This document shows, in pieces, positions 9,505-60,630 of a stretch of 64,000 nt of DNA. Position 1 is the first letter of the stretch, and every line of letters starts with the position of its first letter. The notes under the pieces are model-generated. The model was not told the origin of the DNA and did no database searches. It was given only the letters and a program-made list of their open reading frames with translations. The stretch is taken from positions 744,001 through 808,000 of the forward strand of contig NZ_CP095482.1 of the NCBI RefSeq assembly GCF_023028225.1. Direction: 5' to 3'. The DNA is from Halorientalis litorea. GTDB taxonomy: Archaea > Halobacteriota > Halobacteria > Halobacteriales > Haloarculaceae. A program made the position numbers and the translations under genes.

Positions 9505-10887
9505 ATGCGAACGCTCGCGTTCGATGGCCGGATGGGTGCCAGCGGGGACATGCTCCTCGGGGCACTGCTCGCGGCCGGAGCCGACCGGGACGCCCTCGCA
9601 CCCGTCGAGGAGTCCACGCTCCGCGTGACTTACGAGGTCCGGCCCGTCGAGAAGAACGGTATCGCGGCCACCGCCGTCGATGTCGTCCGCCCGGAGGAAG
9701 GAACACACGACCACTCCCCCGACCCCGAACACGGCCACGACGACGCAGGGGCACAGTTACACGAACACGACGACGGGGACGGGGCACACGACCACTCCCC
9801 CGACCCCGAACACGGCCACGACGACCTCGCGGACGAACCCCATCGCCACGGGCACGGCGAGGACGCAGGACACACACACGCCGAGGGACACGGCCCACAG
9901 CGGACGCTCTCGGGAGTCCTCGACATCGTGGACAAGATGGACCTCCCCGAATCGGTCGCCGCCGACGCGACGGCCATCTTCGAGACGTTGGCCGCGGCGG
10001 AGGCGGCCGTCCACGGGACCGACCCGGCGGAGACGCACTTCCACGAGGTGGGTGCCGACGACGCCATCGCGGACGTGGTGGGCGTCTGTCTGCTTCTCGC
10101 GGACCTCGGCGTCGACCGCGTGGTGACGACCCCACTCTCGACTGGCGGCGGCGACGTCGGGATGAGCCACGGGACCTACTCCGTTCCGACCCCGGCGGTC
10201 GTCGAACTCGCCGAACGGGCCGACTGGTCGCTCCGCGGTGGGCCGGTCGAGCGCGAACTCCTGACGCCGACGGGCGCGGCGATTCTCGCCCACGTCGCGG
10301 TGGGCGTCCCCGACCTTCCCGAACTCCGGGTCGCCGCGTCAGGGTACGGCGCGGGCGGTTACGACCTGCCCGACCGCCCGAACGTCCTCCGCGCCATCGT
10401 CGGCGACGGGAGCGGCGGCCTCCAGCGCGACGACATCACAGTGCTGGAGACGAACCTCGACGACGCGCCCCCGGAGGTGCTGGGCGGCCTCCAGGAGACG
10501 CTGGCAGAGGCTGGCGCGCGCGACGTGTCTATCGTCCCGCTGACGATGAAGAAGTCCCGGCCCGGCCACCTCGTGAAGGTCATCACCAAGCCCGCGGACG
10601 CACAGCGAGTCGCACGCAGACTGGCCGAGGAGACGGGAACGCTCGGCATCCGGGAACACGGCGCGGGCCACCGGTGGGTCGCGTCGCGCGAGTACCGGAC
10701 CGTGACGGTCACCGAGGGTGAGACGGACCGCGACGTGACGGTGAAAGTCGCCAGCGACGAGGCGGGAACGGTCTACGACGTGAGTGCCGAGTACGACGAC
10801 GCGCTGACCGCGGCCGACGCCCTCGGCCTCCCCGTCCGGGAGGTCACGCGCCGGGCGGAGGCGACGGCCCGGGACGCCCTCGACTGA
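9505..10887 (+). CDS. larC: LarC nickel insertion protein with His-rich insert
   Basis: 460 residues from the ATG before RTLAFDGRMGASGDM, the LarC N-terminal signature. LarC is a CTP-dependent cyclometallase that inserts nickel into the pincer nucleotide cofactor of LarA-type racemases. The second domain has MKKSRPGH. A long insert (about residues 68-132) holds some 20 His, probably a nickel store. In lactobacilli LarC needs a programmed frameshift; here it is one open frame. No larA, larB or larE lies in the window, so the target enzyme is elsewhere. An in-frame start 15 codons upstream is less likely. Confidence 0.9.
   Translation: MRTLAFDGRMGASGDMLLGALLAAGADRDALAPVEESTLRVTYEVRPVEKNGIAATAVDVVRPEEGTHDHSPDPEHGHDDAGAQLHEHDDGDGAHDHSPDPEHGHDDLADEPHRHGHGEDAGHTHAEGHGPQRTLSGVLDIVDKMDLPESVAADATAIFETLAAAEAAVHGTDPAETHFHEVGADDAIADVVGVCLLLADLGVDRVVTTPLSTGGGDVGMSHGTYSVPTPAVVELAERADWSLRGGPVERELLTPTGAAILAHVAVGVPDLPELRVAASGYGAGGYDLPDRPNVLRAIVGDGSGGLQRDDITVLETNLDDAPPEVLGGLQETLAEAGARDVSIVPLTMKKSRPGHLVKVITKPADAQRVARRLAEETGTLGIREHGAGHRWVASREYRTVTVTEGETDRDVTVKVASDEAGTVYDVSAEYDDALTAADALGLPVREVTRRAEATARDALD
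9704..9825 (+). repeat. 41-bp exact direct repeat inside larC
   Basis: Bases 9704-9744 and 9785-9825 are identical. Both encode HDHSPDPEHGHDD, so the His-rich nickel-binding stretch was doubled by a recent in-frame duplication. Confidence 0.9.
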
Positions 10888-13449: not shown

Positions 13450-13453
13450 GGAG

Positions 13454-13519
13454 TTTTATACTAAATTTTGCAAGGAGTGGTTCGCGCGGAGCGCGAACCC
13501 GACGCAGTGAAATTTAGTA
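13454..13519 (-). repeat. palindromic gene-end element, copy A (after phoU)
   Basis: Outer inverted repeat TACTAAATTT (13459-13468) and AAATTTAGTA (13510-13519) encloses a perfect 9-bp hairpin, GGTTCGCGC-GGA-GCGCGAACC (13479-13499). The flanks TTTTGCAAGGAGTG and CCGACGCAGTGAAATTTA recur at 29.6 kb, and a 30-bp core recurs exactly at 60491-60520. The outer repeat overlaps the TAA stop codon of the phoU gene. Confidence 0.85.
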
Positions 13520-28057: not shown

Positions 28058-28130
28058 CCACCCGCAGACCGACGGTACCGGTCCCCGGAGACCCAAAACC
28101 CACTTATCACCGACCCGACTTCACCCGAGC

Positions 28131-29414
28131 ATGACTGTCTCGCGCGAAGTCGAACTCGAAGGCCACATCATCGACTCGGGGATGATGCAGACCTGTTTCG
28201 GCATCATCATGGACATGGGTGGTGCCTTCGAGGTCGAGGAGTTTCGAATCGGCCGCCGCAAGGACGAACACTCCTACGCCCGCCTGCTCGTCACCGCTGA
28301 CACCGAGGCCGACCTCCAGTCCATCGTCCACGAACTCCACCAGAACGGCGCGAACCCGGCCGACCCGAAAGACGCCACGCTCGAACCGGCTCCCGCCGAC
28401 CAAGTGGTCCCGAAGGGGTTCTACTCGACGACGAACCACCCCACCGAGATTCGCTACCGGGGCGAGTGGGTCGAAGTCGAGGACATCGAGATGGACTGTG
28501 CCGTGGTGGTGGAGGACGGCGAGGCACGGAGTGGCTCGGAACGGCCGAGCGGCGAAGGGAGTGAGCCGCGAGACGGTGAGAGTCCACGGGCGTACACCAA
28601 GGTCCTCAACGCTATCGAGGCCGACGACCTCGTGGTGACGGGCGAAGCCGGTATCCGGGTCAACCCGCCCGAACGCCCGCGCGGGTCCGAGGGGGCGTTC
28701 GGGTTCATGCAGGGCGGTGTCTCCTCGGAGCGACCCTCCGAGACGACCATCGCCAACATCGCCGAGGCGATTCAGGAGACGAAAGCCGAGGGCGGGAAGG
28801 TGCTGGCCGTCTGTGGCCCGGCACTCGTCCACTCGGGCGCGCGGGAGGACCTCGCCCGGTTGGTCCGCGAGGGCTACGTCGACATGATTTCGGCAGGCAA
28901 CGGCTTCGCCGTCCACGACATCGAGCGTGACATCTACGGCACGTCGCTCGGGATGGACACCGAGAGTCTCGACCACCCCCGGAAGGGCCACAAACACCAC
29001 ATCTACACCATCAGCGAGGTCATCCGCTCGGGGTCCATCCCCGAGGCCGTCGCGGACGGAACCATCGAGTCCGGCGTGATGTACGAGTGCGTTGACAACG
29101 ACGTGCCGTTCGTCCTCGCGGGGTCCATCCGCGACGACGGCCCCCTGCCGGACACTATCACCGATGCCGTCGAGGCCCAGAACGCCATCCGCAAGCAGGC
29201 ACACGAGGCCGACATGGTGTTGATGCTCTCGACGATGCTCCACTCCGTGGCCGTCGGCAACTGCCTGCCCTCGACGACGCGTGTCGTCTGTGTCGACATC
29301 AACCCCGCCACCGTCACCCAACTGCTGGACCGTGGCTCCGCCCAAGCCGTCGGGATGGTCACCGACATCGGGACGTTCGTGCCGATTCTCGCCGAGAAGA
29401 TTCTAGACGAGTAA
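28131..29414 (+). CDS. COG1915/TIGR00300 ornithine cyclodeaminase-like enzyme (LOR/SDH domain)
   Basis: 427 residues. N-terminal SREVELEGHIIDSGMM and the C-terminal NAD-binding region (GGKVLAVCGPALVHSG, VVCVDINPATV) match the archaeal LOR/SDH family, members of which convert ornithine to proline with NAD. A low-complexity insert (about 125-150, SGSERPSGEGSEPRDGES) is a haloarchaeal addition. Its last 45 bases are repeated exactly 97 bases downstream. Enzyme activity is inferred from family. Confidence 0.8.
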   Translation: MTVSREVELEGHIIDSGMMQTCFGIIMDMGGAFEVEEFRIGRRKDEHSYARLLVTADTEADLQSIVHELHQNGANPADPKDATLEPAPADQVVPKGFYSTTNHPTEIRYRGEWVEVEDIEMDCAVVVEDGEARSGSERPSGEGSEPRDGESPRAYTKVLNAIEADDLVVTGEAGIRVNPPERPRGSEGAFGFMQGGVSSERPSETTIANIAEAIQETKAEGGKVLAVCGPALVHSGAREDLARLVREGYVDMISAGNGFAVHDIERDIYGTSLGMDTESLDHPRKGHKHHIYTISEVIRSGSIPEAVADGTIESGVMYECVDNDVPFVLAGSIRDDGPLPDTITDAVEAQNAIRKQAHEADMVLMLSTMLHSVAVGNCLPSTTRVVCVDINPATVTQLLDRGSAQAVGMVTDIGTFVPILAEKILDE

Positions 29415-29556
29415 CAGCCCCACGAACCCGCGCAAGCGGTTTTTGCTCCAGCTTTTTGGCCGAGCGGTTCGCGAGCGGCGTGAGCGAACCCGAGGCGAAA
29501 AAGGTGGATGTGGGACGTTCGTGCCGATTCTCGCCGAGAAGATTCTAGACGAGTAA
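29370..29556 (+). repeat. 45-bp exact duplication of the gene 3' end
   Basis: 29370-29414 (end of the cyclodeaminase-like gene with its TAA) and 29512-29556 are identical. The 97-bp spacer holds two T5 runs (29440-29444, 29453-29457), good archaeal terminators, and an inverted repeat GGTTCGC (29466-29472)/GCGAACC (29484-29490). The second copy is followed at once by palindromic element B. Confidence 0.95.
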
Positions 29557-29685
29557 ATTTTACTGCGTCGGGTGTCCTCGGGTGGCTTCGCCACCCTGCG
29601 GGTACAGCGTGGCGGCTTCGCCGCCACGTCGCCCGGTCGCGGGCGGCGGCCCGCGACCGCACTCCTCGCAAAATTTAGTATAAAA
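29554..29685 (+). repeat. palindromic gene-end element, copy B with three hairpins
   Basis: Outer TAAATTT (29554-29560) and AAATTTA (29671-29677). Flanks match copy A on the other strand: TAAATTTTACTGCGTCGG at the gene side, TCGCAAAATTTAGTATAAAA at the far side. Inside are three perfect hairpins: GGGTGGC-TTC-GCCACCC (29580-29596), CGTGGCGGC-TTC-GCCGCCACG (29608-29628) and an 11-bp stem at 29634-29659. The TAA of the duplicated gene end is part of the outer repeat. Confidence 0.9.
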
Positions 29686-29735
29686 CGGCCGGACGCTCTT
29701 TCACTCGCGTCCGGTACAATGTCCTCGGGACCGTC

Positions 29736-50904: not shown

Positions 50905-52638
50905 ATGAGCCAGCAACACGACCAGCGACCGGAGTCCGGGAAACCCGACGACCTCCCGAGCAACGAGGTGACGGAGGGTCCCGACAAGGCCCCACACCGC
51001 GCGATGTTCCGCGCGATGGGCTACGACGACGAGGACCTCTCCTCGCCGATGGTCGGCGTCGCCAACCCCGCCGCGGACATCACGCCCTGTAACGTCCACC
51101 TCGACGACGTGGCAAATTCCGCCTACGAAGGCATCGACGAGGGCGCGGGGATGCCAATCGAGTTCGGGACCATCACTATCTCCGACGCCATCTCGATGGG
51201 TCACGAGGGCATGAAGGCCTCGCTGATCTCGCGGGAAGTCATCGCCGATTCAGTGGAACTCGTCGCCTTCGGCGAGCGCATGGACGGCCTCGTGACGATC
51301 GGCGGTTGTGACAAGAACATGCCGGGGATGATGATGGCGTCCATCCGCACGGACCTGCCCAGCGTCTTCCTCTACGGCGGGTCGATCATGCCCGGCGAAC
51401 ACGAGGGGCGGGAAATCACGATCCAGAACATGTTCGAGGGCGTCGGCGCGGTCGCCACCGGCGAGATGACCGAAGACGAACTCGACGAGATGGAGCGCAA
51501 CGCTTGTCCCGGCGCGGGGGCCTGTGGCGGGATGTTCACCGCCAACACGATGGCCTCCATCTCGGAAGCGCTGGGCTTTGCACCCCTCGGTTCGGCCTCG
51601 CCGCCCGCCGAGAACGAGAGTCGCTACGATGTCGCCCGCGAGGCTGGCGAACTCGCCGTCGAGGTCGTCCGCGAGCGCCGCAAGCCCTCCGATTTCCTCA
51701 CCCGGGAGTCCTTCGAGAACGCCATCGCCCTGCAGGTCGCGGTCGGTGGCTCGACCAACGCCGTCCTCCACCTGCTGGCGATGGCCGCCGAGGCGGGCAT
51801 CGACCTCGATATCGAGGACTTCAACCGAATCAGCCGTCAGACGCCGAAAATCGCCAACCTCCAGCCCGGCGGCGAGCGGGTGATGAACGACCTCCACGAG
51901 GTCGGTGGCGTCCCGGTCGTCCTCAAGGAACTGCTGGACGCCGGCCACCTCCACGGCGACGCTCTCACCGTGACGGGCAACACGCTCGGCGAGGAACTCG
52001 ACGCGTACGACCCGCCGGCCATCGCCGACCTCGACGCCGACTTCCTCCACACGGTCGCCGACCCCATCCACGAGCGGGGAGCCATCCGCATCCTCACGGG
52101 CAATCTCGCCCCCGAGGGTGCGGTCATCAAGATTACCGGCGAGGACCACCTCCACCACGAGGGACCGGTCCGCGTCTTCGAGGGCGAGGAGAACGCCATG
52201 CAGTACGTCCAGGAGGGCAACGTCGAGAGCGGCGACGTACTCTGCATCCGCAACGAGGGACCGCGCGGCGGCCCGGGGATGCGCGAGATGCTCGGCGTCA
52301 CCTCCGCCGTCGCCGGGCAGGGGCACGCCGAGGACGTGGCACTGTTCACCGACGGCCGCTTCTCGGGCGCGACGCGTGGCTTCTCCATCGGGCACGTCGC
52401 CCCCGAAGCCTTCGTCGGCGGCCCCATCGCGGCACTCGAAGACGGTGACACCATCACCATCGACATCGACGACTTGGAGATGTCTGTCGACCTCAGCGAG
52501 GCGGAGCTCGAAGAGCGCCTCGACGCCCGCGACCAACCCGAACCGAACTACACGAACGGCGTGCTGGCGAAGTACGGCCAGACGTTCGACTCCGCGGCCA
52601 ACGGCGCGGTGACCAATCCCGGCGCGAAACAGGACTAA
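50905..52638 (+). CDS. ilvD: dihydroxyacid dehydratase IlvD
   Basis: 577 residues from ATG 50905. Cluster-binding motifs [18 protein letters not shown] and [15 protein letters not shown] are present. It makes 2-oxo acids for valine, leucine and isoleucine with an iron-sulfur cluster. Its last 84 bases reappear 163 bp downstream with two changes. No other branched-chain gene is adjacent. Confidence 0.95.
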
Positions 52639-52646
52639 CTGGGGGA

Positions 52647-52680
52647 CCGCTGGCGAACGGCGTGAGCCAGCGGCCGTTTT
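52647..52680 (+). terminator. hairpin and T run after ilvD
   Basis: CCGCTGGC (52647-52654), 11-base loop, GCCAGCGG (52666-52673), then CCGTTTT. The same kind of hairpin stands beside element A (13419-13449). Confidence 0.6.
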
Positions 52681-52683
52681 GAT

Positions 52684-52800
52684 CCACCTTTTGCAAGGTT
52701 CACGAGACGCTTTACGTCTCGTTAGCAAACCAGAAATCGGAGATTTCTGGTGTGAGTGGGTCGTGACCAGCGGGAACGTCCCCGACGAAGTAAAAGGTGG
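52684..52800 (+). repeat. palindromic gene-end element, copy C
   Basis: Outer inverted repeat CCACCTTTT (52684-52692) and AAAAGGTGG (52792-52800). The left flank continues TTTTGCAAGG and the right flank is CCGACGAAGTAAAA, both shared with copies A and B. Inside are hairpins CGAGACG/CGTCTCG (52703-52721) and a 10-bp stem ACCAGAAATC/GATTTCTGGT (52729-52751). Here the element precedes the duplicated gene end, whereas it follows it at the other loci. Confidence 0.85.
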
Positions 52801-53046
52801 TACTGGCGTGCTGGCGAAGTACGGCCAGATGTTCGACTCTGCGGCCAACGGCGCGGTGACCAATCCCGGCGCGAAACAGGACTAACTGCCCCACTGGCAC
52901 AGTGAGCGCGGCGGTTTGCCAACGAGTTTCGGATGCGACGACAGGTCCAGTTACCCGATGGTACGAGCCAAGTAGCCAAGAGTACAAAAATAAGCTAGCC
53001 AGTTCGTGGTAAGTACAACAGCGACCGCACGTCAAGTTCCGCTGTC

Positions 53047-60365: not shown

Positions 60366-60394
60366 TTAAGAGCGACATTGTTGCGGTCGAGCAT

Positions 60395-60630
60395 CCGCGC
60401 TCGCCCGGCGAGCGCGGTTCACTCCGACGAACGTAGTGAGTCGGAGGTCCCGCATACCGTGCGAACGGGCACGAAGTGCCCGTGAGCAAAGAGTGGTTCG
60501 CGCGGAGCGCGAACCCGACGAAGTACAAAGTGGAGTGGGACCGCCGCGAACTCCCGCGCTCGTTCGCGTTCTCCCACGTTTCGGCTCGCAACACTCAGTC
60601 GCGAAGCTCCCTCGGTTGCGTCGCGTGAAA
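60395..60630. repeat. hairpin cluster with palindromic gene-end element, copy D
   Basis: At least four hairpins: CGCGCTCGCC/GGCGAGCGCG, CGGGCAC/GTGCCCG, and GGTTCGCGC-GGA-GCGCGAACC (60495-60515). The last lies in a 30-bp block (60491-60520) identical to copy A, followed by AAGTACAAAGTGG. Bases 60534-60553 copy the tRNA-Pro 3' part. The cluster lies directly downstream of the tRNA gene. Confidence 0.8.

Follow-up and report, generated by a model that had tools for sequence, protein, structure and literature searches.

Two gene ends are present twice in the window

The window, by which we mean the whole 64-kb stretch of Halorientalis DNA that was analysed, is part of a 3.2-Mb genome (G000); two further Halorientalis genomes, G001 and G006, were used alongside it. 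One of its genes scores 543.5 bits against NCBIfam TIGR00300 (cut-off 410.8) and has a Pfam ArgZ-like match, and by these matches its product is predicted to be the nickel-pincer-dependent ornithine cyclodeaminase. The end of this gene is present twice, as is the end of a second, putatively ilvD-like gene. The features are as follows.

28128..29414, + strand: gene for ornithine cyclodeaminase (TIGR00300), with ArgZ-like domains at the C-terminus; start placed by homology
29370..29414, + strand: copy 1 of the cyclodeaminase gene end including TAA; exact repeat
29415..29437, no strand: left part of the spacer, 23 nt; corresponds to the variable left arm found in other copies of E
29438..29507, + strand: palindromic element E (A-type), GGTTTTTGCTCCAGCTTTTT - variable hairpin - AAAAAGGTGG; GGTGG end towards copy 2
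29508..29511, + strand: ATGT, the bases that join GGTGG to the exact copy
29512..29556, + strand: copy 2 of the cyclodeaminase gene end including TAA; exact repeat
29554..29686, + strand: palindromic element B, stem CTAAATTTT / AAAATTTAG; begins at the TAA of copy 2
52558..52641, + strand: copy 1 of the ilvD-like gene end (stop TAA plus CTG)
52676..52800, + strand: copy of E in which another hairpin is nested; between both ilvD-like end copies
52805..52888, + strand: copy 2 of the ilvD-like end

A sequence-only reading of this DNA had reported a 45-bp copy of the cyclodeaminase gene end, and indeed the segments at 29370-29414 and 29512-29556 are identical at 45/45 bases, both with the terminal TAA, and lie 97 bp apart; the chance expectation for exact repeats of at least 45 within 500 bp is ~1e-18 (64 kb, window composition). 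As also described there, the second copy runs into element B, the first three bases of which are the TAA of copy 2. That reading had taken B to be the partner of the copy and its cause, which we reject: it is the palindromic element E within the spacer, which that reading had overlooked, and not B, that recurs between copies at other loci. By eye, B-type elements elsewhere in the genome also appear to begin at a gene's own stop (7 sites). A further B-type element lies at 13453-13516, where its outer end coincides with the apparent stop codon of a minus-strand gene.

Exact direct repeats of at least 25 within 500 bp occur at three places in the window: the cyclodeaminase end, the ilvD-like end and 9704/9785. 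The ilvD-like end, absent from the sequence-only reading, has the same arrangement of copy 1, E and copy 2. The third place is a 41-bp exact direct repeat (9704-9744 / 9785-9825) inside a gene, in a His/Asp-rich coding stretch. A search of the whole window against Rfam at gathering scores gave no match, and a known RNA was rejected on that ground.

E recurs at gene ends in Halorientalis genomes

E consists of GGTTTTTGCTCCAGCTTTTT, a variable hairpin and AAAAAGGTGG, is ~70-200 bp long and has no ORF or coding capacity; being short, non-coding, inverted-repeat and present in many copies, it agrees in these respects with the description of a MITE. E and B are built alike but have exchanged stems (CCAC../..GTGG versus CTAAATTTT/AAAATTTAG), and plasmid copies from Natrialbaceae have a third stem type. 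DNA folding gives z scores of -6.4 for B and, for two E copies, of -2.9 (29438-29507) and -5.9. In eight Halorientalis genomes, AAAAAGGTGG occurs 14-38 times per genome and the reversed pattern 2-9 times.

Nested hairpins occupy similar positions in E at L129, L132, L136, L145, L252 and L260 (e.g. CCAGAAATC..GATTTCTGG, GGTTCACGAGACG..), from which hairpin modules seem to enter or replace one another. At L234 (G001), two tandem E copies at one gene end have the same flanks and different hairpins, as if E copies had exchanged them. The window itself contains, at 60390-60460, a module AGCATCC-hairpin-GGTTCAC without an E core; in many copies of E this module makes up the left arm.

We tested 88 AAAA(A)GGTGG sites from G000, G001 and G006 (the G000 set found with the 9-mer), and 69 of them match the E regular expression. 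With a threshold of score ≥32 that also had to exceed the highest of 30 shuffles by 6, 28 of the 88 sites have a flanking direct repeat; 27 are regex-positive and the 28th (L131) is an E by eye, while L254, one point under the threshold, is yet a real case according to the carbamoyltransferase comparison below. The repeat is nearly always the gene's last 20-110 bp, restarting 0-8 nt past GGTGG. By eye, 27/28 repeats have the gene left of E and the end fragment 0-8 nt after GGTGG, where the 28 rows include the window's ilvD-like E, read on the other strand, and the offset count leaves that row out; the exception is L125, where the gene is one for a tRNA and 22 bp of its end are copied. Duplication length varies across loci from 20 to >110 bp. 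At L144 the copied stretch covers, by eye, the stop/start overlap of two genes, and therefore gene ends are not strictly needed as sites; they may perhaps be merely the places where such insertions survive.

E is also found without a copy, its start often 0-7 nt from the stop of a convergent gene (~25 sites, by eye) and in other cases at tRNA ends. In six tRNA genes (L125, L135, L213, L219, L256 and L263) the 3' end is at most 2 nt away from the CCACC end of E, and one of these genes overlaps the E copy by CCA.

E and the copied gene end occur together in relatives

We collected 94 loci of the TIGR00300 gene from two sources, with some genomes in both, and found the copied end in nine distinct genomes: the window's, G001, Har. 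amylolytica, Har. argentinensis, Har. japonica, Har. mannanilytica, Har. vallismortis (decayed), archaeon HArc-gm2 and Halosimplex aquaticum. In a set of 69 loci from which most double entries were kept out, eight have both duplication and E, two E only, two a duplication without the E motif (the decayed Har. vallismortis case, L073, and L107) and 57 neither; E and the copy are associated (Fisher 2.3e-7). The ornithine carbamoyltransferase gene, with a match in 55/56 genomes, gives the same picture in the 30 loci tested: 11 with both (one with the right-end motif only), three with E only, none with the duplication only and 16 with neither (Fisher 6.7e-6). L107 aside, no element-free relative with a copied end was found among the cases examined. 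The proposal that an element had entered at the gene end and restored it thus held in that the end lies on both sides and E-free relatives lack the copy, and failed in the element that it named, B.

Har. sebkhae has the empty counterpart of the site that is filled in Har. argentinensis. The two are sister rows in the gene tree, E and the copy are present in argentinensis only, and their downstream DNA is identical at 295/300 and 679/700 positions; this is the one close empty/filled pair in the comparison (n=1). The E core is 61/64 identical between Har. argentinensis and Har. japonica, and the downstream DNA of japonica is unrelated. Over the whole gene tree, the nine positives among 56 rows require at least six changes of state. 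The cyclodeaminase gene of G001 (L048) does not group with Halorientalis in the tree, although its junction is that of the window; its tree position suggests that it was horizontally acquired.

All 8/8 intact TIGR00300 cases have the same junction position and codon, with one extra base relative to the gene, and despite this common junction their hairpins and copies vary by species. A carbamoyltransferase junction, GTGGCTGCCGGACC, is likewise found in four genera with different hairpins, and that gene has at least five junctions in total across genomes. The event had been called recent, which fits the copy sequence, with its 45-bp identity; the E/gene junction looks older than that, because it is common to distant genera.

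Divergence between the copy and the gene

Mismatches between copy and gene are concentrated beside E: 55/184 positions differ within 8 nt of GGTGG, 7/184 over the 8 nt that follow and 3/175 in the stretch after that (23 loci). The first bases were extrapolated gap-free, and the mismatches are partly alignment or element sequence. The latter applies because ATGT, the junction sequence of the window, also stands directly 3' of GGTGG in the G001 homolog and in a Haloferax plasmid copy of E. Codon differences at 37 loci comprise 56 synonymous and 33 non-synonymous changes, an excess of synonymous changes over a dead copy (expected 24%, p 1e-14), over one constrained and one dead copy (expected 39%, p 5e-6) and with a generous transition bias in the null (p 1e-3); the null fractions are our own estimates, and the rows, with several genomes each for two genes, are not independent. 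The differences are mostly synonymous, and therefore most of the divergence arose when both copies were still coding, probably in different alleles.

Searches for an enzyme or carrier

A reverse transcriptase (RVT_1) was found in none of 20 genomes, eight of them Halorientalis, in which controls were detected. Y1_Tnp is present in 13 of the 20 and has no match in G006, which has six duplicated E sites, and a Y1/REP origin was rejected on its absence from this E-rich genome. At three Y1-transposase loci there was no E motif nearby; each has one GTGAACC heptamer, at unlike places. A viral carrier was also rejected, the sole match in viral_contigs being an 18-mer in a contig without visible E structure. 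Seven plasmid records have an E-like match. Of the six examined, one (Haloferax alexandrinus) shows a flanking repeat, at a place where no gene end is annotated; at the other five, from other families, no flanking repeat was seen.

Proposed origin of the duplication

The observations to be accounted for are the position of E between the copies, its association with them, the empty site, the loci with E and copy across genera, and the bias towards synonymous differences. Together they suggest that E is a small mobile element whose target duplications are very long, and it may move between species by ordinary recombination. The explanation we favour, with a probability of about 0.55, is that E is a short non-autonomous palindromic element that makes long, variable target duplications and is then spread and re-templated by homologous recombination. 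E would settle in a gene's last codons, and the stretch between its two joints (~20-110 bp, normally with the stop codon) would come to flank it on both sides, the duplication presumably forming at insertion. The host gene would remain intact, since its end is on both sides of E, and the resulting order would be gene, copy 1, E (GGTGG outward), copy 2 and the old downstream DNA.

The copied coding end would then act as a right-hand homology arm, through which E plus the gene end could enter E-less alleles of the same gene by homologous recombination, regardless of the downstream DNA, and so spread. We propose that both copies are templated on the recipient's single gene end, and that this is why they are identical save for a few donor bases beside E. 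The shared E core with unrelated downstream DNA in Har. argentinensis and Har. japonica, as well as the junction in G001, fit transfer of this kind. In-place gene conversion between both copies would equally account for their identity. The copy could also have been added after E rather than together with it: L134 in the window's genome and L261 in G006 are, by eye, apparently the same gene end, with E alone in the former and E with a copy in the latter. The single orientation of E relative to the gene in 27/28 repeats counts against plain insertion, from which it is not expected.

More tentatively, E may be a selfish sequence that spreads between species without an enzyme of its own, by means of the borrowed host-gene end; any E-less allele in another haloarchaeon would be a landing site, and each landing would re-copy the recipient's gene end. 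If true, E would home by means of coding sequence that it has borrowed, and no endonuclease would be needed. On the favoured explanation itself, the small archaeal palindromic mobile elements would gain one with duplications long enough to rebuild a coding end. It would account for partial gene-end repeats downstream of housekeeping genes and supply natural markers of gene exchange among haloarchaeal species. The movement of transposase-free haloarchaeal repeats would become directly testable, because a single gene can have filled and empty alleles in close species.

Recurrent local duplication offers another account, with E as an old terminator-like hairpin at whose GGTGG base slippage or template switching re-copies the gene end, the distal E then being lost. 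It draws on units of gene end and E that occur twice in tandem at L140/141, L146/147, L228 and L234, on many copy-less E that, by eye, seem to occupy equivalent positions in several Halorientalis genomes and on an E remnant behind copy 2 at L065. We nevertheless think it rather unlikely, as the last tandem unit is a gene end without E at L140/141, L146/147 and L234, some distal ends have a different C-terminus, and the sebkhae/argentinensis pair resembles a joint gain or loss of E plus copy. Integration by a site-specific recombinase of the tRNA-targeting type, the element bearing an att copy of the gene end, is the pattern that the sequence-only reading had recognized here. The six E copies that abut or overlap tRNA 3' ends, the 22-bp tRNA-end copy on the far side of E at L125 and the identical TIGR00300 junction position across genera speak for it. 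We rejected it as improbable, however, since no att core or other common motif was found in 24 junctions, copy starts differ between genes and even within one (the carbamoyltransferase junctions), the host genes are unrelated, and E carries no integrase.

The duplicated end might instead be a maintained 3'-end module, in which E would terminate transcription both ways and the copied end would have a putative function of its own, such as an antisense stretch ended by CCACCTTTTT. The T tracts on both strands, copies that remain near the gene's sequence and the presence of E at similar gene ends in several genomes agree with this, but patchy presence, even in sister species, and the variable length and start of the copy leave it with little probability. 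Retroposition by target-primed reverse transcription is a source of variable target duplications and truncated left ends and would suit a fixed GGTGG end with a variable left end and duplication length; the negative RVT_1 result nearly excludes it. An assembly artefact is hardly conceivable, given that the structure is also present in the complete Halosimplex aquaticum chromosome (L084) and in many independent assemblies.

Comparison with known systems

No description of such an element was found in the literature, judged by titles or the starts of abstracts. REP elements mobilized by RAYT (Y1) transposases are small extragenic palindromes with conserved end motifs, as is E; unlike them, E comes with long duplications of gene ends and is retained in G006, where Y1_Tnp has no match. 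Some retroelements have long or variable target duplications and one fixed end, and here too E is alike, whereas the reverse transcriptase was not found in the genomes searched.

Integrative elements at gene 3' ends resemble E in restoring the gene end and leaving a partial far-side copy, and the prophages in tRNA genes of Haloquadratum have repeats of 22 and 43 nt (PMC3119063). Those elements are tens of kb long, with an integrase beside one target; E, in contrast, is found at many unrelated genes and has no common att core. Haloarchaeal MITEs are short, non-coding and palindromic like E, and some have target duplications (PMC3119063). Their ends match a known transposon; E motifs are absent from the three Y1-transposase loci examined, and a short duplication of fixed length is not what E has. 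The nearest published account found (PMC3119063) is that of SMR-A of Haloquadratum walsbyi, an inverted-repeat element of ~100 bp without a transposase, for which the mobiliser is given as unknown. As described there, SMR-A has no target duplication and prefers PATEs and IS605-type elements (PMC3119063). Both are thus small haloarchaeal inverted repeats without a transposase, and by that description E is set apart by its place at the ends of housekeeping and tRNA genes and by its 20-110 bp duplications.
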